DNA from: Candidatus Dormiibacterota bacterium
GTDB lineage: Bacteria > Acidobacteriota > Polarisedimenticolia > Gp22-AA2
Assembly (NCBI GenBank): GCA_035635555.1
Contig: DASQAT010000033.1
Coordinates: forward strand, 1 to 64,000
Direction of reading: 5' to 3'
Length of the DNA stretch: 64,000 nucleotides
Shown here: positions 3 through 8,017 of the stretch, in pieces
Layout of the letters: each line of letters opens with the position of its first letter
Numbering within the stretch: position 1 is the first letter of the stretch
Position numbers and translations under genes: made by a program
Notes under the pieces: generated by a model
The model's database searches: none
Seen by the model: only the letters and a program-made list of their open reading frames with translations
Told to the model about the DNA's origin: nothing

Positions 3-2846
3 GAGAAGAGGGTCTTCGGCAAGCTGTCCTGGGACATGTCGACGAACCACAAGCTGCAGTTCACGGCGACCTGGGATCCGCAGGAGTACGGCAACCTGGG
101 AGTCGATTCCTTCACGGCTGTGGAAGCGGGTTACACCGAAATGCGCGGCGGGCTCAACCTGACGCTGAAGGAGACGGCGGTCTTCAACCCGAACGTCTTC
201 CTCGAGACCACGGTCCAGCACTTCGCGACCCAGCCCCAGACGATCCCGACGCTGAACGCCGACACCAACCACAACGGGGTTCTGTTCATCGACCGGAACC
301 ACAACGGCTTCATCGACGCGACCGAGCGCGACCCGGGCGAGGACTACGATCGGGACGGAGCCTTCGACATCTTCGAGGACATCAATCACGACCGCCATCT
401 CGGCCCCGGTGAAGACAGGGATCTCGACGGACGGTTGACCGCGGCCGGCGCCGGGTGCGAGGGCGTCCACCGGGAGGACGTCGATTGCGACGGCCATGTG
501 GACCTGATCTGGGAGGACGACAACAACAACCACCAGCTCGATCCGGGTGAGGATCGGGACGCGGACGGCAGGCTCGATTACATCGACGAGGACCTGAACC
601 ACAACGGCATACTCGATCCCGAAGAGGACAGGAACGGCAACGGGCACCTGGATACTTTCGATCCTCATTTCGCGAGCATCCATCCCTACATCGAGGACCG
701 GAACGGGAACCAGAACCTGGACGACCGCTCCTTCCCCAGCAGACTGGATCCCGATCCGTTCTACCCGTACGACGAGCTCACCCCGATCCCGAGGGACCGC
801 GACTACACGATCGATCAGCAGACCCTGCGGACCAGCGGTCCGAACGCCGGAGCGTACCCCGGGGTCCGCGGGTACAGCGACTACACGGCGAACGAGGGGA
901 GGATCACGCTGAGGGAAGACCTGACGGTCTTCGTTCCCGACTGGCATGGCCAGCACGACATGAAATTCGGCGGTGTCGTGGAGCGGGAGACCTACAACCA
1001 GGACACCAACCTGCGACCGGTGCTCCTGCCCCACGCGAACCCCCCCACCGCGAACACCATCCAGCCGAGAATCGGCGTCATCCTGCCGGCCGAGAACCAG
1101 GTGTTCAACAACGCCACCAGCACCTCGTTCGGCATATACGCGGTGGACACCTTCAAACCCCTCCCGAACCTGACGCTGGGGATGGGGCTGCGCTTCGATC
1201 GGGAGGCCACCGACTCATTCGGCTATTTGCCGTTCGATCCGATCGCCCAGAGGAATCTCTACGACCGGCTCAACGCCCTGGGGGGAGGCGAGCGGGCGCT
1301 GGACGACAAGCTGCTCGGGAACGACGACGGGCTCCAGAGCTGGGGCTACTGCGCCGACCCGCTCTTCTATGACAGGGGGTCCGAGGGGAACGCGTGCGAT
1401 CACCCGCGGAGACCGCTGGGAATCGATCCGAACTATGACAGCATCGCCCAGCTCGACCAGGACCTGCTCAACCTGAACCGGGTCGCGCCGTCCCGCCTGA
1501 CGCAGCACCACACGGCCACGACGCTGGCGGCCGCCAGCCTGAAGAACCTCTTCCCGGAGGCGGTCAGGATCGATCCGGTGACGGGTGACGAGGTCATCGA
1601 CCGCGAGGTTCTGCGCGAGCGCGGCGCGGCCACCTTCCAGGAGCAGGAAGCCTTCCGGCTGACGAATAACAATCTGGCGCCGCGCGTGTCGGTGTCGTGG
1701 GATCCGTGGGCCGACTCCAAGACGAGGGTGTTCGCCAACTGGGGCCGCTACTACGATCGTCTGTTCCTGGATACGGTCATCCCCGAGGAGGGGCCCGACA
1801 CGATCCAGCGCTACTACATCACGGACGAGAACGGCGTGACGGGGGCCGGTGTGCCCGACAACGGCATCGGCAACCCGATCTCCAAGGCGCCGCCGAGCGC
1901 CACCCAGGTCGACCGCGGACTGCAGACGCCCTTCTCCGACGAGCTGACGGTCGGCTTCGAGCGCGAGCTGGCGCCCGAGATCTCCATCAAGCTCACGTAC
2001 ATTAACAGGAAGTACCGGGACCAGCTGCAGGACCGGGACATCAACCACAGTCTGCGCTTCGACGACACGACCGGCCAGCCGCTGGACGAGATCGGCGGCC
2101 TGTTGCAGTCGAGCGGGGGCGGCGGAGGCACCTCGGCGGCCCGGGTCAAGGACAACAAGCCGGACCTCTACATCCACAACTTCTTCTTCAACCAGATCTA
2201 CTTCCTGAGCAACATCAATTCGGCCCGCTACCACGGCATCGAGCTGCAGCTGACCAAGCGCCTGAGCCGCAAGTGGCAGATGGACGCCTCGTACACCTAC
2301 TCGCGCAACCTCGGGTTCGCGGACGCCTTCTATTCGCGGCTGGGGGACGATCCCGCCACGGTCCCCTACACTTTTGGGTACCAGACGGACGACCAGCGGC
2401 ACGTGGTGAAGTTTAGCGCCGTCACTTTCCTGCCGCATGACTGGCAGGTGGGCGGCACGGCGCAATGGACTTCAGGTCTTCCGTACAGCGTGATCAGCTT
2501 CTTCTCGGACCTGGACAATTTCGACTTCCAGCAGACCCGTTTCCTATACGGCCATGCGCCCGATACGCCGAGCGCGACGAACCCCGGCCGCGCTTTCGAA
2601 CCGTCGCGGCGCAACGATCAGCGCAATGATCCCGTTCTACTCATCAACCTGCACGCCGACAAGGCGTTCGTCCTCGGGAAGATGAACTGGAAGCTGTTCT
2701 TCGATATTCAGAACCTCCTCAATCGCGACTACCTGAGGATCTTCACCTACGAGCCGGCGTCCCCCGACCGCGGCGGCGCGCTGCAGGTGATCTCCGAGCG
2801 CGACTTCGGTCGCCGGTTCCAGATCGGCTTCCAGGTCGAGTTCTGA
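3..2846 (+). CDS. TonB-dependent receptor (Oar-like), C-terminal part with acidic Ca-binding-type repeats; 5' end outside window
   Basis: This is the C-terminal part of an outer-membrane beta-barrel receptor. The reading frame is open from base 3, so the ATG at 36 is internal and the true start lies upstream of the window. Alternating aromatic strands run through the second half, with the phrases LTVGFERELAPEISIKLTYINR and YHGIELQLTKRLS typical of Oar-like receptors, and the protein ends in Phe as barrel proteins do. Roughly residues 85-245 hold about ten Asp/Asn/Gly-rich units such as DRNHNGFID and DRDADGRLD, resembling thrombospondin type 3 or EF-hand-like calcium loops. Their position within the barrel region suggests an extracellular loop (inference). 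The substrate is unknown. It converges on the sulfite reductase gene with nine bases between stop codons. Confidence 0.85.
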   Translation, partial: EKRVFGKLSWDMSTNHKLQFTATWDPQEYGNLGVDSFTAVEAGYTEMRGGLNLTLKETAVFNPNVFLETTVQHFATQPQTIPTLNADTNHNGVLFIDRNHNGFIDATERDPGEDYDRDGAFDIFEDINHDRHLGPGEDRDLDGRLTAAGAGCEGVHREDVDCDGHVDLIWEDDNNNHQLDPGEDRDADGRLDYIDEDLNHNGILDPEEDRNGNGHLDTFDPHFASIHPYIEDRNGNQNLDDRSFPSRLDPDPFYPYDELTPIPRDRDYTIDQQTLRTSGPNAGAYPGVRGYSDYTANEGRITLREDLTVFVPDWHGQHDMKFGGVVERETYNQDTNLRPVLLPHANPPTANTIQPRIGVILPAENQVFNNATSTSFGIYAVDTFKPLPNLTLGMGLRFDREATDSFGYLPFDPIAQRNLYDRLNALGGGERALDDKLLGNDDGLQSWGYCADPLFYDRGSEGNACDHPRRPLGIDPNYDSIAQLDQDLLNLNRVAPSRLTQHHTATTLAAASLKNLFPEAVRIDPVTGDEVIDREVLRERGAATFQEQEAFRLTNNNLAPRVSVSWDPWADSKTRVFANWGRYYDRLFLDTVIPEEGPDTIQRYYITDENGVTGAGVPDNGIGNPISKAPPSATQVDRGLQTPFSDELTVGFERELAPEISIKLTYINRKYRDQLQDRDINHSLRFDDTTGQPLDEIGGLLQSSGGGGGTSAARVKDNKPDLYIHNFFFNQIYFLSNINSARYHGIELQLTKRLSRKWQMDASYTYSRNLGFADAFYSRLGDDPATVPYTFGYQTDDQRHVVKFSAVTFLPHDWQVGGTAQWTSGLPYSVISFFSDLDNFDFQQTRFLYGHAPDTPSATNPGRAFEPSRRNDQRNDPVLLINLHADKAFVLGKMNWKLFFDIQNLLNRDYLRIFTYEPASPDRGGALQVISERDFGRRFQIGFQVEF

Positions 2847-2855
2847 TCGGGGCAA

Positions 2856-4640
2856 CTAGGTTGCGCACTCTCCTTCGCCGACCTCCATCTCGAAGGGGGC
2901 GTCCGAGCCGATGTCCTTGAAGTCGTCGGCCTGGAGGTCCGCCTCGGAGTACGTCGTGAGGTCGGCGAGGACAGTGTTGACGCGATCGAGATCGACGCGC
3001 TTGAAGAAGGAGAGCGCGGTCTCGGCCGGCTGCCGCTCGTCGCGGAACAGCGTGAGAAGACGGGTCAGCGCCTCGGGAACGCGCCGGGCGGGGATCTTCG
3101 CGGAGCGCCGGCCGAAGTGGGCCCCGTCGCCGTCCACGCCGCCTCCCAGAAACATCTGGTAGGCCGGCACGGCGTGACCGTTCACATTGCGGGCGGCGCC
3201 GTGGAAGCCGATGCCGGCGACGTGGTGCTGTCCGCAGGAGTTCGGGCAGCCGCTGATCTTGACGCGCAGATCAGAGGCGGCCTCGACCAGGTCCTTCCCT
3301 CCGTTGCCGGCCGCCGCGGTCAGCGTGCTCTGCACGGCCAGCGCCAGCTCGCGCGAGCCGGTCACGGCGATCTTGCACGACTCGGCCCCCGGGCAGGAGG
3401 TCGGGTCGAGCAGGCGGCCTGCCTCGCCGCGACCCAGCCCGATCGCCTCGAGCGCCCGGTGCACGGCCGCCAGCTCCTCGCTCTTCACCCAGCGCAGAAG
3501 GATGTTCTGGTCCTGCGCCGTGCGCACGCTGCCGTTCCCGTGGGTCTCGGCGATAGATGCGATCGCCTCGAACTGCGCGGCCGTGATGTCGCCGCGCGGC
3601 AGGGTGATGAAGGCCATCGAGTAGCCGCGCTGCCGCTGCGGCCGCGTGTTGGTCGCGGCCCAGGCGCGGAAGGCGGGGACCCCCGACCCGGCGATGCGGG
3701 CGTGCAGGTCCAGAGGGGTGCCGGGGCGCGCCGGGCGGGCGTCCTCCACGTACCGGCCGGCCTCCGGGTCGCGCGCCGCCGGCAGGGCCTGGAGCTCCTT
3801 TTCGATCTCCGCCTTGAAGGTCTCGAACCCGAGCTTGCGGATGGCGTACTTCATCCGCGCCTGCCCCTTGTTCTTGCGGTTGCCGGTGCGGTCGAAGACG
3901 CGCACGATCGCCTCGCACACCGGCAGGAGCCTCTCGGGCGGCAGGAACTCGTGCAGCACCCAGGCGTTCTGCGGCGACACCGACAGCCCGCCGCCGATGA
4001 CGACCTTGAATCCGATCTCGCGTCGTCCCTCCACCTCGCGGGTGCGCGCGATGACGCCGATGTCGTGCATGGCGCCCATGGCGCAGTCGGTCGGGCAGCC
4101 GGAGAGAGCGATCTTGAACTTGCGCGGCAGGGCCTGGCAGATCGGGTTGCGCAGGAAGAAGCGGGTCAGCGCCTCGCCGTACGGGGTGACGTCGAACGGC
4201 TCGTCGGTGCACACCCCCGCCATCGGGCAGGCGGTGATGTTGCGCACCGTGTTGCCGCACGCCTCGCGCGTCGTCAGTCCGGCCTTCTCCATGGCGTCCA
4301 TCGCCTGCGGGACGGCCGCCATCTTGACGAAGTGGAACTGCACGTTCTGGCGCGTCGTGACGTGCCCGAAGCCGCGCGAGTGCTCCCGCGCCACGGACGC
4401 GAGGGCGCGCAGCTGGTCGCCGTTCAGGACCCCCTGCGGGATCTTGACGCGGATCATCTGCACGTCGTCCTGGCGCTGGCCGTAGATGCCGCGCGTCAGG
4501 CGGAAGGTGCGGAACTCGTCCGGCCCGATCACGCCCCGCTCGAAGGCCTCGAGGACCGAGACGAACTCCTCGATGTCCTTCGCCGAGGCGAACCGGCGGG
4601 CCGGCGCCGCTGTCTTGACGGCCTCATCGATCGGCATCAT
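2856..4640 (-). CDS. Ferredoxin-type assimilatory sulfite/nitrite reductase (siroheme, 4Fe-4S)
   Basis: This siroheme enzyme makes six-electron reductions, sulfite to sulfide or nitrite to ammonia, in the cytoplasm. Two ferredoxin-like half-domain/sulfite reductase repeats are visible. The cluster and siroheme ligands are intact as C-x5-C (CPGAESC, about residues 417-423) followed by C-x3-C (CPNSC, about 464-468). The N-terminal half has the family signature TTRQNVQFHFV. The 594-residue length fits the ferredoxin-dependent monomeric class. It follows the APS/PAPS reductase gene by 33 bases on the same strand and shares its attenuated leader, so sulfite is the more likely substrate; nitrite cannot be excluded from sequence alone. 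Two adjacent ATGs occur at 4640 and 4637. The second has better spacing from the GGGAGG ribosome-binding site. Confidence 0.9.
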   Translation of the reverse strand: MMPIDEAVKTAAPARRFASAKDIEEFVSVLEAFERGVIGPDEFRTFRLTRGIYGQRQDDVQMIRVKIPQGVLNGDQLRALASVAREHSRGFGHVTTRQNVQFHFVKMAAVPQAMDAMEKAGLTTREACGNTVRNITACPMAGVCTDEPFDVTPYGEALTRFFLRNPICQALPRKFKIALSGCPTDCAMGAMHDIGVIARTREVEGRREIGFKVVIGGGLSVSPQNAWVLHEFLPPERLLPVCEAIVRVFDRTGNRKNKGQARMKYAIRKLGFETFKAEIEKELQALPAARDPEAGRYVEDARPARPGTPLDLHARIAGSGVPAFRAWAATNTRPQRQRGYSMAFITLPRGDITAAQFEAIASIAETHGNGSVRTAQDQNILLRWVKSEELAAVHRALEAIGLGRGEAGRLLDPTSCPGAESCKIAVTGSRELALAVQSTLTAAAGNGGKDLVEAASDLRVKISGCPNSCGQHHVAGIGFHGAARNVNGHAVPAYQMFLGGGVDGDGAHFGRRSAKIPARRVPEALTRLLTLFRDERQPAETALSFFKRVDLDRVNTVLADLTTYSEADLQADDFKDIGSDAPFEMEVGEGECAT

Positions 4641-4673
4641 GACCTCCCGGAGCGCTGTCGCACCGTCGACGGA

Positions 4674-5432
4674 TCACTCCGCCGGCGTCGGAGACTGCGG
4701 AACCGGCGAGCCGGGTCCCGCCTCCGTGTGCAGCCCGCACTCCTTCTTCGCGAAATTTGCCCACCGGCCCGCGCGCGCGTCTTCGCCCGGCTTGACCTCA
4801 CGCGTGCAGGGATAGCAGCCGATGGACGGGTAATTGCGATCGTGCAGTACGTTGTAGGGAACGTCGTTGGCGCGGATGTAGGCCCAGACGTCGGCCGACG
4901 TGAAGCGCGCCAGCGGGTTCAGCTTCACCAGGTTGAACAGCTTGTCCCACTCGACCAGGCCGGCGTTGGCGCGCGTCGGTGCCTGGTCGCGCCGGATGCC
5001 GGTGATCCAGGCCTGGAAGGCGCCGAGATGCCGCTTCAACGGCTCGACCTTGCGGATCTTGCAGCACAGGTCCGGCTGCCGCCCGAACAGGTCCCGCCCG
5101 TGCAGCGCCGACTGTTCCTCGATGGTCAGGAGCGGTTTCACCGCGACCGGCCGGACCCCGTACTTCGCGATGATCCGGTCGCGCACCTCGAAGGTCTCGG
5201 GGAAGAGGTAGTCCGTGTCGAGGAAGAAGACCGGAACGGTCGAGTCGATGCGGGCGACCATGTCCAGAAGCGCCACGTCCTCGGCGCCGAAGGAGCAGGC
5301 GAGCGTGAGGCCGCCCCGGAACTTCTCGATCCCCCAGCGCAGCACGTCCTGGGGGGTCTTCGACTCGAACGCGTTCGAGACTCGCTGAATCTCTGTCGGG
5401 TCAATCTCGGTCATCGTCTGAATCACGTTCAC
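4674..5432 (-). CDS. cysH: Phosphoadenylyl/adenylyl-sulfate reductase (iron-sulfur type)
   Basis: The enzyme reduces APS or PAPS to sulfite with thioredoxin or a similar donor, feeding the sulfite reductase encoded next. The PP-loop region SFGAEDVALLDM is near the N-terminus. A Cys-Cys pair (CCKIRK, about residue 123) and CxxC (CYPC, about 205) form the four cysteine ligands of a 4Fe-4S cluster, a pattern associated with APS-using enzymes. The C-terminal ECGLH carries the catalytic cysteine. The start is set at the GTG at 5432, which follows AGGAGG by six bases and gives 252 residues. The open frame continues to 5537, but that extra part runs through the leader terminator and is not expected to be translated. 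Expression is probably controlled by the polycysteine leader upstream. Confidence 0.93.
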   Translation of the reverse strand: MNVIQTMTEIDPTEIQRVSNAFESKTPQDVLRWGIEKFRGGLTLACSFGAEDVALLDMVARIDSTVPVFFLDTDYLFPETFEVRDRIIAKYGVRPVAVKPLLTIEEQSALHGRDLFGRQPDLCCKIRKVEPLKRHLGAFQAWITGIRRDQAPTRANAGLVEWDKLFNLVKLNPLARFTSADVWAYIRANDVPYNVLHDRNYPSIGCYPCTREVKPGEDARAGRWANFAKKECGLHTEAGPGSPVPQSPTPAE

Positions 5433-5487
5433 GCCTGTCCTCCTCGCTGGTCCCGGCCGGCATCCACGGCCTGGAAAAAGTGCCCGG

Positions 5488-5523
5488 AAAATAAAAAACC
5501 CCGCTGCCGGTGGCAGTGGGGTT
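5488..5523 (-). terminator. Intrinsic terminator in the cysH leader (attenuator hairpin)
   Basis: On the minus strand, bases 5523-5512 pair with 5508-5497 in a 12-bp GC-rich stem with one A.C mismatch and a three-base loop. A U tract (TTTTTTATTTT, 5498-5488) follows. It lies after the leader peptide stop codon and before the cysH ribosome-binding site. It should stop transcription ahead of cysH unless the 5' arm is captured by the alternative pairing. Confidence 0.88.
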
Positions 5524-5620
5524 GAGATTTCCTCCAACTTCCTGGAGGGCCTTCTACGTCGTCCCGATTACTCTAAAGACCCTCCATGCCCGCTGCCGCC
5601 GGTCGGCCGTGTAGGCCGAC
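5507..5620 (-). promoter_or_regulatory. Competing RNA pairings of the cysteine attenuator (antiterminator region)
   Basis: Three mutually interfering pairings can be read on the minus strand. Segment 2 (5602-5589, CCGGCGGCAGCGGG) resembles the terminator 3' arm and can pair with 5520-5507 at 12 of 14 positions, which would dismantle the terminator. The cysteine-codon run itself can pair with segment 2 through a GC/GU helix. A perfect 7-bp hairpin (5620-5614 with 5608-5602, loop TACAC) begins at the last cysteine codon. A ribosome stalled on the cysteine codons would cover segment 1 and favour antitermination. The pairings are read by eye and no energies were computed. Confidence 0.72.
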
Positions 5621-5717
5621 AACAACAACAGCAGCAACAGGCGGCGGAAGACACCATGGCGCAAGCGGCGGCAACGCCCTTGCGGAGTCTCTTCAATTCG
5701 GCGTTCAATCGACTCAC
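5568..5717 (-). CDS. Polycysteine leader peptide of the cysH operon
   Basis: This is a 49-residue leader peptide beginning with GTG at 5717, preceded by GAGGAG at a spacing of five bases. Residues 27-33 are seven consecutive cysteines encoded by five TGT and two TGC codons. TGT is normally uncommon in such a GC-rich genome. One more Cys is at residue 19, and a Lys/Arg-rich segment precedes it. The peptide ends with TAA at 5570-5568, just before the terminator. Its probable role is to sense Cys-tRNA supply: shortage stalls the ribosome on the cysteine run and allows transcription into cysH. The open frame extends upstream to 5759, but the ribosome-binding site and promoter favour the GTG. Cysteine-run leader ORFs are known upstream of sulfur genes in mycobacteria. 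I know of no description in this lineage. Confidence 0.85.
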   Translation of the reverse strand: MSRLNAELKRLRKGVAAACAMVSSAACCCCCCCRPTRPTGGSGHGGSLE

Positions 5718-5738
5718 GGTGTCTCCTCGACGCCTAGT

Positions 5739-5767
5739 GATATACGCCCAAAGGTGCACCGGATCAA
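5739..5767 (-). promoter_or_regulatory. Sigma-70-type promoter of the cysH leader
   Basis: On the minus strand TTGATC (5767-5762) and TATATC (5744-5739) are separated by exactly 17 bases. The predicted start of transcription, near 5732, lies about 15 bases before the leader GTG and leaves room for its GAGGAG site. The transcript would carry the leader peptide and attenuator before cysH. Confidence 0.65.
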
Positions 5768-5816
5768 CTGGATTTCATATTGTGACTCGGATATTTGCGG
5801 TCCCCTCGAAACCAGC

Positions 5817-5846
5817 TTGGTGACCCGGTTGTCGCTGGCTTATCAT
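5817..5846 (+). promoter_or_regulatory. Possible promoter of the nitrilase gene
   Basis: TTGGTG (5817-5822) and TATCAT (5841-5846) are 18 bases apart, and the latter lies 27 bases before the nitrilase ATG. The match to consensus is moderate. It would fire divergently from the cysH leader promoter. Confidence 0.4.
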
Positions 5847-5873
5847 CATGCGGTCCATTCGCGGGGGATTCAC

Positions 5874-6809
5874 ATGGCGGAACGAAAAGTGAGGGTGGCC
5901 ATCGCCCAGGCGGCCCCTGTCTTTCTTGATCTGGACCGGTCGGTGGAGAAGGCGGTCCGCCTGATCGAGGAGGCCGCCCGGAAGGGGGCCCGGCTCGTTG
6001 CGTTCGGAGAGTCCTGGCTTCCCGGCTACCCCGCCTGGCTCGACCTCTGCCCCGGCGCGGCCTTCTGGGATCACCCCCCGGCCAAGCGGGCGTACGCCCG
6101 GCTGGTCGAGAACAGCGCGGTCATCCCCGGTCCGGTCACGGACCGGCTGGGGGCCGCGGCGCGCGAGCAGGGAGTGGTCGTGGTCATCGGCGTGCACGAG
6201 CGCGTCGTCTCCGGGCCCGGACACGGCACCCTCTACAACACCAACCTCGTCGTCGGGTCGGACGGGACCCTTCTGAGCCGCCATCGCAAGCTCGTCCCGA
6301 CGCACGCCGAGCGGCTGGTGTGGGGGCAGGGGGACGGCTCCGGGCTCGAGGCGGTAGCGACCTCCGCGGGCCGCGTCGGCACGCTCATCTGCTGGGAGCA
6401 CTGGATGCCGCTCGCCCGGCAGGCGATGCACGAGTCGGCCGAGGAGATCCACGTCGCCAACTGGCCGACGGTTCGCGACATGTACCAGGTCGCGAGCCGT
6501 CACTACGCCTTCGAGGGGCGCTGCTTCGTTCTGGCGGCGGGGTTGATCACGGAGGCCCGCGACCTGCCCGCGGACCTCGAGCTGCCGCCGGAGATGAAAG
6601 GGAAGCCCGACACTCTCGTGTGCGCCGGAGGGTCGTGCATCATCGGACCGGACGGCGCGCTTGTGGCGGGACCGGTGTTCGACCGCGAAGAGATCCTCGT
6701 CGCCGACCTCGACCTCGGAACGATCCCCGGGGAGAGCATGGCCCTCGACGTCACCGGGCACTACAACCGCCCGGACGTTTTCCAGTTCACCAAGCGCGTC
6801 GTGATCTAG
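5874..6809 (+). CDS. Nitrilase / cyanide-dihydratase-type carbon-nitrogen hydrolase
   Basis: This cytoplasmic enzyme is expected to hydrolyse an organic nitrile to the carboxylic acid and ammonia. The catalytic triad of the nitrilase superfamily is complete: Glu in FGESWLPGYP, Lys in HRKLVPTHAERL and Cys in LICWEHWMPL. The length of 311 residues and the CWEHWMPL and AERLVWGQGDG wording match branch 1 (true nitrilases) rather than amidases. The start at 5874 has GGGGGA a few bases upstream. The longer open frame from 5586 runs through the divergent regulatory region and is not credible. Substrate preference, aliphatic, aromatic or cyanide, cannot be told from sequence. Confidence 0.9.
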   Translation: MAERKVRVAIAQAAPVFLDLDRSVEKAVRLIEEAARKGARLVAFGESWLPGYPAWLDLCPGAAFWDHPPAKRAYARLVENSAVIPGPVTDRLGAAAREQGVVVVIGVHERVVSGPGHGTLYNTNLVVGSDGTLLSRHRKLVPTHAERLVWGQGDGSGLEAVATSAGRVGTLICWEHWMPLARQAMHESAEEIHVANWPTVRDMYQVASRHYAFEGRCFVLAAGLITEARDLPADLELPPEMKGKPDTLVCAGGSCIIGPDGALVAGPVFDREEILVADLDLGTIPGESMALDVTGHYNRPDVFQFTKRVVI

Positions 6810-6822
6810 GAACCGCTCCGGG

Positions 6823-7590
6823 TCAGCGGTCCTTCCACTTCGGCGCCCGCTTCGCGAGGAACGCCTCGATCCCCTCCCGCGCGTCGTGGGTGCGCATCAG
6901 GTCCTCGAGATAGATCCTCTCCGTGACCGCCAGGTCGCTGTCGATGGCCGCACCGTAGCGCAGACGCACAGCCTTGACCGCCCGGGCGAGCGCGGCGGCG
7001 CTCTTCGGCAGGATGTGCTTCACGATCCAGCGGCCGGCCGCTCGGCCGGGATCCGCGGCGACCTCGTCGACGAGCCCCAGCTTCAGCCCCTCCCGGGCGG
7101 AATACGTCCGGCCGGTCAGGCAGATCTCGTCGGCCGCCGCCTGGCCGCAGCGCAGGGGAAGGATGACCGACGCCGCGGGAGGGAAGACTCCTAGGTCGAT
7201 CTCCGGCTGCCCCAGCCGCGCCCTGGGGTGCGCGAAGACGCGGTGGCAGAAGGAGGCCAGCTCAAGACCACCGCCGAGGCACCGCCCGCGAACGACAGCG
7301 ATGAGGACCCGGTCGAGCCGCTGGAGTGTCCTGAACAGACCGTGGAAGGTCCGCAGCATCTCCTCGACGGTCTCGGGGCGGTGCTCCTCGATGCTCACAC
7401 CGTAGGAGAAGTGGGCGCCCGCCCCTTCGAAGACGATCGCCTTGAGAGCGGGCGCGCTCCCCGCGGACGCGAGTTTCTGGTTCAGATCGGAGAGGGTCGC
7501 GATGTCGAGGATGTTCCCGGGCGGCGCGTCGAGGATGACGCGCAGGACCGCTCCGTCGTGCGACCGTTCCAGGACGACTCGATCCTGCAT
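6823..7590 (-). CDS. Enoyl-CoA hydratase/isomerase family protein
   Basis: This 255-residue crotonase-fold protein probably acts on an acyl-CoA. The oxyanion-hole segments are visible as HFSYGVSIEEH near residue 60 and VRGRCLGGGLELASFCHRVFAH near residue 105. The usual second glutamate position after the GGG motif reads as GQPEIDLGVFPP. The wording resembles dienoyl-CoA hydratases of the cyclohexadiene carboxyl-CoA type as well as ordinary enoyl-CoA hydratases, so no symbol is given. It converges on the nitrilase gene and lies alone on its strand, with no beta-oxidation genes beside it. The tRNA-Asp gene lies just upstream on the same strand. Confidence 0.82.
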   Translation of the reverse strand: MQDRVVLERSHDGAVLRVILDAPPGNILDIATLSDLNQKLASAGSAPALKAIVFEGAGAHFSYGVSIEEHRPETVEEMLRTFHGLFRTLQRLDRVLIAVVRGRCLGGGLELASFCHRVFAHPRARLGQPEIDLGVFPPAASVILPLRCGQAAADEICLTGRTYSAREGLKLGLVDEVAADPGRAAGRWIVKHILPKSAAALARAVKAVRLRYGAAIDSDLAVTERIYLEDLMRTHDAREGIEAFLAKRAPKWKDR

Positions 7591-7605
7591 GGCGCTGGAG
7601 AAAAT

Positions 7606-7682
7606 TGGCGGGGTCGACGGGGCTCGAACCCGCGACCTCCGGCTTGACAGGCCGGCGTTCTAACCAGCTGAACTACGACCCC
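7606..7682 (-). tRNA. tRNA-Asp (GTC)
   Basis: A complete cloverleaf can be read on the minus strand: acceptor GGGGTCG paired with CGACCCC, discriminator G, encoded CCA at 7608-7606, and T-arm GGTTCGAGC. The anticodon loop CTGTCAA gives anticodon GTC. Confidence 0.96.
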
Positions 7683-7730
7683 GCACCCGGGTGGGACACT
7701 CGGCGCGCCCTTGCATGGAGCCGGGGGCCA

Positions 7731-7770
7731 ATGGTGGGCGATACTGGATTGAACCAGTGACCCCTTGCTT
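7731..7770 (-). repeat. Partial copy of the tRNA-Val 3' end (left att-like repeat)
   Basis: About 40 bases repeat the 3' half of the tRNA-Val at 9440-9514, including the CCA end, acceptor strand and T arm. It differs by one missing C in the T loop and one C-to-T change. After 7770 the similarity stops, so no anticodon arm, D arm or 5' acceptor strand is present and it cannot be a working tRNA. It is a direct repeat of 9439-9479, as left by integration at a tRNA 3' end. Confidence 0.85.
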
Positions 7771-8017
7771 CTCGAGGGTTGCCGAAGCGTGAAATCTACC
7801 AGATGCGAAGAACTTAGGCAACCGCCATCATTTCGAGGAACGACAGTGTCGGGTCAGCTACGGGTGGGAACCGATTGGATCAACGACCATCGATCCAGTC
7901 TGGCCTCACCGGTGTTACAGTCATCTCAATAGCGCACCGATTCGTTCCTTTTGGGCTTACGGCATTACCTGGCTTGTCGCCACGGGCGCAGGAGATTCGG
8001 TTCCGGAGGAGTCCAAG

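Follow-up and report, generated by a model that had tools for sequence, protein, structure and literature searches.

We read the DNA upstream of cysH in a gp22-clade acidobacterium as a ribosome-mediated transcription attenuator that senses cysteine, analogous to those of trp and his operons, and we put the probability of this assignment at roughly 0.87. The locus lies in a 64,000-nt stretch of genomic DNA (the window, meaning the whole stretch that was analysed), for which a sequence-only reading had proposed trp/his-type logic with cysteine as the signal. That proposal gains support at several levels: the parts stand in order and in frame, orthologous loci keep them, folding predicts two mutually exclusive RNA structures, and comparable leaders occur in statistical excess across the phylum. 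Together, these observations suggest a response to cysteine.

A polycysteine leader ahead of cysH

The candidate control region occupies the minus strand and begins with a putative promoter, in which a -35 element, TTGATC (5762-5767), is separated by a 17-nt spacer from a -10 element, TATATC (5739-5744). The corresponding TTGA and TATA hexamers are recognisable at the equivalent place in 7/7 orthologs. A Shine-Dalgarno sequence, GAGGAG (5723-5728), stands 5 nt upstream of a GTG start codon at 5717, with the -10 element about 21 nt upstream of the same codon, and the orthologs likewise carry a purine-rich site just upstream of the conserved GTG. Judged from the sequence, this spacing would argue against a leaderless ORF. 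The GTG opens a 49-residue leader peptide ORF (5568-5717, TAA stop at 5570-5568) that translates as VSRLNAELKRLRKGVAAACAMVSSAACCCCCCCRPTRPTGGSGHGGSLE and contains seven consecutive Cys codons (5619-5639), the putative regulatory codons, of which the orthologs have six or seven. Five of the seven are TGT, compared with 35/175 in the window's coding-like ORFs (binomial P=0.005).

The Cys codons overlap the first of a series of RNA elements. Segment A (5629-5642), formed by Cys codons and their flank, pairs in the ribosome-free fold with a segment that mimics the terminator 3' arm (5642-5629 with 5601-5588), and on the folding model this helix is the functionally important one. A 7-bp hairpin, P1 (GUCGGCC/GGCCGAC, 5620-5614 with 5608-5602), opens in the last Cys codon. 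The mimic itself, segment B (CCGGCGGCAGCGGG, 5589-5602), would act as the antiterminator strand, and a helper hairpin, P2 (5543-5586), surrounds the leader stop codon and is nested within the antiterminator. An intrinsic terminator, AACCCCACTGCC-ACC-GGCAGCGGGGTT (5497-5523; 5' arm 5523-5512, 3' arm 5508-5497; -19.0 kcal/mol), then runs into the U tract TTTTTTATTTT (5488-5498), and an AGGAGG Shine-Dalgarno sequence (5439-5444) precedes cysH. None of 200 dinucleotide shuffles matches the leader RNA in stability (z = -4.36). The promoter, the leader Shine-Dalgarno sequence and GTG, the seven Cys codons, the hairpin after the run, the mimic segment, the stop, the U tract and the AGGAGG of cysH all lie where the sequence-only reading had placed them. 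Its terminator hairpin was also correctly positioned but is not the 12-bp stem that had been claimed, as one A.C mismatch in the window genome leaves 11 pairs in 12 positions, although the stem is perfect in relatives. The locus thus presents the arrangement of a ribosome-mediated attenuator, namely a short ORF with a ribosome site and a cluster of product codons, followed by an intrinsic terminator between leader and structural gene.

The gene behind the terminator, cysH (4674-5432, minus strand, GTG start at 5432), encodes a PAPS/APS reductase of 252 residues that matches NF002537 (275 bits; cut-off, 154). After a gap of about 33 nt, the operon continues with a second gene (2856-4640, minus strand) for a haemoprotein of the sulfite/nitrite reductase type, which carries two NIR_SIR and NIR_SIR_ferr domains and reaches no NCBIfam equivalog cut-off. 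The genes concerned serve the synthesis of the amino acid that would be sensed: cysH and the sulfite-reductase-type gene here, and sat at a second locus. Divergent from the operon is a nitrilase-superfamily protein (5871-6809, plus strand), whose best match, the Nit6803 family, scores 231 bits, far below the cut-off of 502. A large ORF at 36-2846 (plus strand) contains many D-x-N-x-D-G type repeats and by eye resembles a TonB-dependent outer-membrane protein with calcium-binding repeats.

Conservation and the predicted switch

For the ortholog comparison we used genomes of the same genus and family, which yielded seven cysH loci with readable upstream sequence, the window locus included; an eighth orthologous locus was cut by a contig end and left out. 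The clustered Cys codons (six or seven), the GTG start, P1, segment B and the terminator are all kept in 7/7 loci, so that the Cys run is no product of chance. In one relative, G005, the run is interrupted by a Thr codon. In pair counts over the seven orthologs, 100% of cells are paired for P1 and for B against the terminator 5' arm, 98.7% for the terminator and 88% for segment A with the mimic; P2, at 70%, is moderately supported. The leader peptide is nearly unchanged in the tail encoding P1 and B and drifts elsewhere. Covariation within the gp22 clade is uninformative, as the core is nearly invariant with few changes and shuffles reach the observed values.

These parts suggest the following mechanism, in which we infer transcription from the promoter, translation of the leader, ribosome stalling and the cysteine response. 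Transcription of the leader by RNA polymerase would proceed alongside its translation by a ribosome. With ample Cys-tRNA, the ribosome would clear the seven Cys codons and B would be recaptured by segment A, or covered, leaving the terminator to form and transcription to end near 5490, ahead of cysH. With scarce Cys-tRNA, the ribosome would stall on the Cys run and keep segment A unpaired, and the free B could then capture the terminator 5' arm ahead of the synthesis of the 3' arm, allowing read-through into cysH and the reductase gene.

Constrained folding predicts the two exclusive structures that the sequence-only reading had envisaged, in the window genome and in six relatives. If the Cys region is masked as by a stalled ribosome and the RNA stops short of the 3' arm, the antiterminator, formed by B and the 5' arm, reaches 7.9-8.0 expected pairs in 7/7 orthologs. 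On the full-length RNA without a ribosome, the terminator has 8.9-9.0 expected pairs, again in 7/7, and the Cys region holds B. In 6/7 orthologs, the ribosome-free Cys region already sequesters B at the stage when the 3' arm is still missing; the exception is G005, where the antiterminator is favoured until the 3' arm is made. At equilibrium on full-length RNA with a stalled ribosome, the terminator is favoured in 5/7 and the antiterminator in 2/7, and the switch must therefore be kinetic. Classical attenuators likewise depend on kinetics. All seven orthologs are thus predicted to be able to form an antiterminator, incompatible with the terminator, while a ribosome occupies the regulatory codons, and a comparison with shuffles and controls across the phylum, given below, bears on the same property.

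A second leader at sat and a survey across the phylum

The window genome carries a further Cys leader outside the window, upstream of its sulfate adenylyltransferase gene, sat, which scores above the TIGR00339 cut-off. There (contig C35; leader and terminator at L252:1253-1430), a promoter, TTGACA-17-TATAGT, is followed by the leader MRSLNVPMLKRPVRPRSMAPEPCRCCRSGGRVVSGR and a terminator, CCCTTTCCGG-GAGA-CCGGGAAGGG-TTTTTT, with the U tract 63 nt past the leader stop. Clusters of two to four Cys codons recur in six relatives, together with a segment of the CCGGGAG type and the terminator. Masking the Cys region in the fold gives an antiterminator pairing of 0.44-0.94, and in two genera (L259, L260) pairing is possible between the Cys codons and AGATAGGAC, a segment that overlaps the antiterminator strand. 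As evidence for cysteine as the signal, the sat locus is independent of the cysH locus, with folding that is less uniform. No such leader was found at the sat loci of other families (L253, L254, L257, L258). We took sat in place of cysD, as the CysD matches in the gp22 clade were CysH cross-matches only. The window genome has just one other run of at least five Cys codons, seven Cys-like codons at C52:12019-12039, which lies opposite the polyGln stretch of a response-regulator gene, is no leader and can serve as a negative control; a scan of 20 loci with four-codon Cys runs elsewhere in this genome returned no further combination of leader and terminator.

CysH is present in 144/396 Acidobacteriota genomes, and upstream DNA was collected for about 80 loci. 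Under a strict criterion (four or more Cys within eight codons of a short ORF that ends 40-100 nt ahead of a terminator), 23/94 distinct Acidobacteriota cysH loci scored, compared with 1 on the antisense strand (Fisher 3.6e-7) and 0/76 loci, mostly of Nitrospirota and Bacillota, in other phyla (Fisher 3.0e-7). About three quarters of the Acidobacteriota cysH loci lack such a leader by this criterion in the stretch examined. As residue controls, His, Trp, Tyr, Asn, Asp, Glu, Ile, Met and Thr gave zero; Ser (18), Leu (13) and Arg (12), residues common in GC-rich DNA, gave scores that represent low-complexity background. A relaxed criterion (at least three Cys in six codons) yielded 32 leaders, six in the gp22 clade and 26 elsewhere, from 15 families in all. 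The search for Cys-run ORFs in Acidobacteriota that the sequence-only reading had suggested finds them, with terminators, in front of cysH, cysD, sir and sat in numerous genomes of the phylum. Sulfur-assimilation genes lie downstream in nearly every surveyed case, the genes behind the terminators being cysH, cobA-cysH, cysD-cysN-cysH, sir, a TauE/SafE permease with cysH, and an NMT1-like ABC binding protein.

As a test for antiterminators, we measured how strongly the terminator 5' arm pairs with the sequence separating the terminator from the Cys codons. The 26 leaders outside the gp22 clade, among which those of related genomes are not fully independent, averaged 0.73 against 0.52 for shuffled segments (Wilcoxon P=7.5e-8), whereas 60 control terminators from the same loci gave 0.57 against 0.55 (P = 0.2); leaders exceeded control terminators with P=1.6e-6. 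Pairing in several individual leaders outside the clade is not above that of their own shuffles.

Some loci show further features. At L208:108-450 (G386), two tandem Cys-leader attenuators (MCCLC... and ...NCPCC...) with separate terminators precede a sulfite-reductase operon. The cobA-cysH leaders of family f20 (L113/L017, L210, L223) share a tail, AFDGG or AFSGG, past the Cys cluster, which is probably a reflection of the antiterminator strand and not a protein motif. Leader terminators come in two flavours, with a GCCCGGG stem or with a CCCACCGCC or CCCGCTGCC stem, in different families (L167, L204, L212, L209, L211, L217, L219 and others). A possible further case (L023/L114, G047) has a leader ending in SGSPCCCCCPRHS upstream of cysH and a hairpin with a weak U tract about 125 nt past the stop. 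We judged three candidates unconvincing: a Nitrospira ORF (L039, MGICCCC), which has no terminator, L213 and L225.

Alternative readings and known systems

Amino-acid operon attenuators (trp, his, leu, thr, ilv and phe in Proteobacteria; trp in Corynebacterium and Streptomyces; PMC1262725) share with the window locus a leader ORF with a run of end-product codons, an exclusive antiterminator and terminator, and the position of the terminator before the first structural gene. The window locus differs from them in its residue, cysteine, in its setting, sulfur-assimilation operons of the phylum Acidobacteriota, and in the pairing of B with the terminator arm, which spans about 65 nt and encloses the helper hairpin.

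Cys-run leaders were predicted by Seliverstov 2005 before cys operons in Mycobacterium and Propionibacterium acnes and before Bifidobacterium longum cbs, in all cases without terminators (PMC1262725). As here, the P. acnes and B. longum leader peptides precede sulfur genes, but the other attenuator elements are missing there and Rho was suggested (PMC1262725). The mycobacterial leaders likewise place a Cys-codon run in a short ORF ahead of cys operons, with cysteine as the signal; PMC13236596, citing Canestrari 2020, describes them as translation attenuators that respond to cysteine, and Rho-dependent control has also been proposed. If the window locus worked in this way, the polycysteine ORF would gate the cysH ribosome site and the terminator would be incidental. 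We consider this improbable: a strong intrinsic terminator, conserved in 7/7 orthologs, sits between leader and cysH, the conserved mimic segment targets the terminator 5' arm and not the cysH ribosome site, and in many families the terminator accompanies the Cys leader at a narrow distance. The mycobacterial ORFs are leaderless and no conserved terminator hairpin was found there, whereas the window ORF has a Shine-Dalgarno sequence and its terminator a matching antiterminator. A translational contribution at cysH is conceivable alongside transcription attenuation.

A shade less probable again is a coding function for the short ORF, whose product would be a small Cys-rich protein, such as a metal or sulfide binder, with the terminator marking the end of its gene. 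The tail CCCCCCRPTRPTGGSG is indeed kept in most gp22 genomes, yet the RNA of this tail forms P1 and segment B, so that constraint on the RNA explains the conservation; the remaining peptide drifts, the pattern expected under selection on the RNA. The leaders of other families have Cys clusters in common but no protein sequence, and a small protein would leave the conserved antiterminator without a role. It is very improbable that a ligand-binding riboswitch or T-box drives the terminator and that the Cys run is incidental; a terminator with a competing structure before an amino-acid biosynthesis operon would fit such a device, but the Cys run itself is what otherwise unrelated leaders share, and Rfam families searched over 2500-8000 gave none above threshold except a tRNA, with neither a T-box nor a SAM riboswitch. 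Chance low-complexity sequence beside an ordinary terminator has a negligible probability: runs of four Cys-like codons do arise by chance in the window genome, where the two strands together give 30 pattern matches and the reversed control gives more, but conservation in all readable relatives, the second pathway locus and the strand, phylum and residue controls refute this explanation.

Premature terminators upstream of genes had been predicted in Acidobacteria by Naville and Gautheret 2010, almost none with an associated function (PMC2965389); in contrast, a signal and an operon class are proposed here for one group of such attenuators. Our literature search, with most subscription papers outside its scope, found no Acidobacteriota leader peptide or cysteine attenuator with a terminator. 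The sequence-only reading had taken a terminator/antiterminator version in an Acidobacteriota-like genome to be probably undescribed, and within the literature searched this polycysteine leader with a terminator, spread over Acidobacteriota, appears to be undescribed.

Under the attenuation reading, the classical logic extends to cysteine with a complete terminator and antiterminator, and a function is proposed for attenuators in a highly abundant, little-studied soil phylum. Our results suggest that Acidobacteriota commonly sense cysteine supply through ribosome stalling. As the cysH and sat loci carry attenuators of the same logic, sulfate activation and sulfate reduction would answer to one signal in the proposed regulon. 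More broadly, we lean towards the view that cysteine-specific leader-peptide transcription attenuation is a main and old mode of controlling sulfur assimilation in Acidobacteriota, organised as a regulon of several operons (in the gp22 clade, cysH-sir and sat) and rebuilt many times with different RNA sequences. The many diverged leaders would then offer material for studying how attenuators are rebuilt under a constant codon signal.
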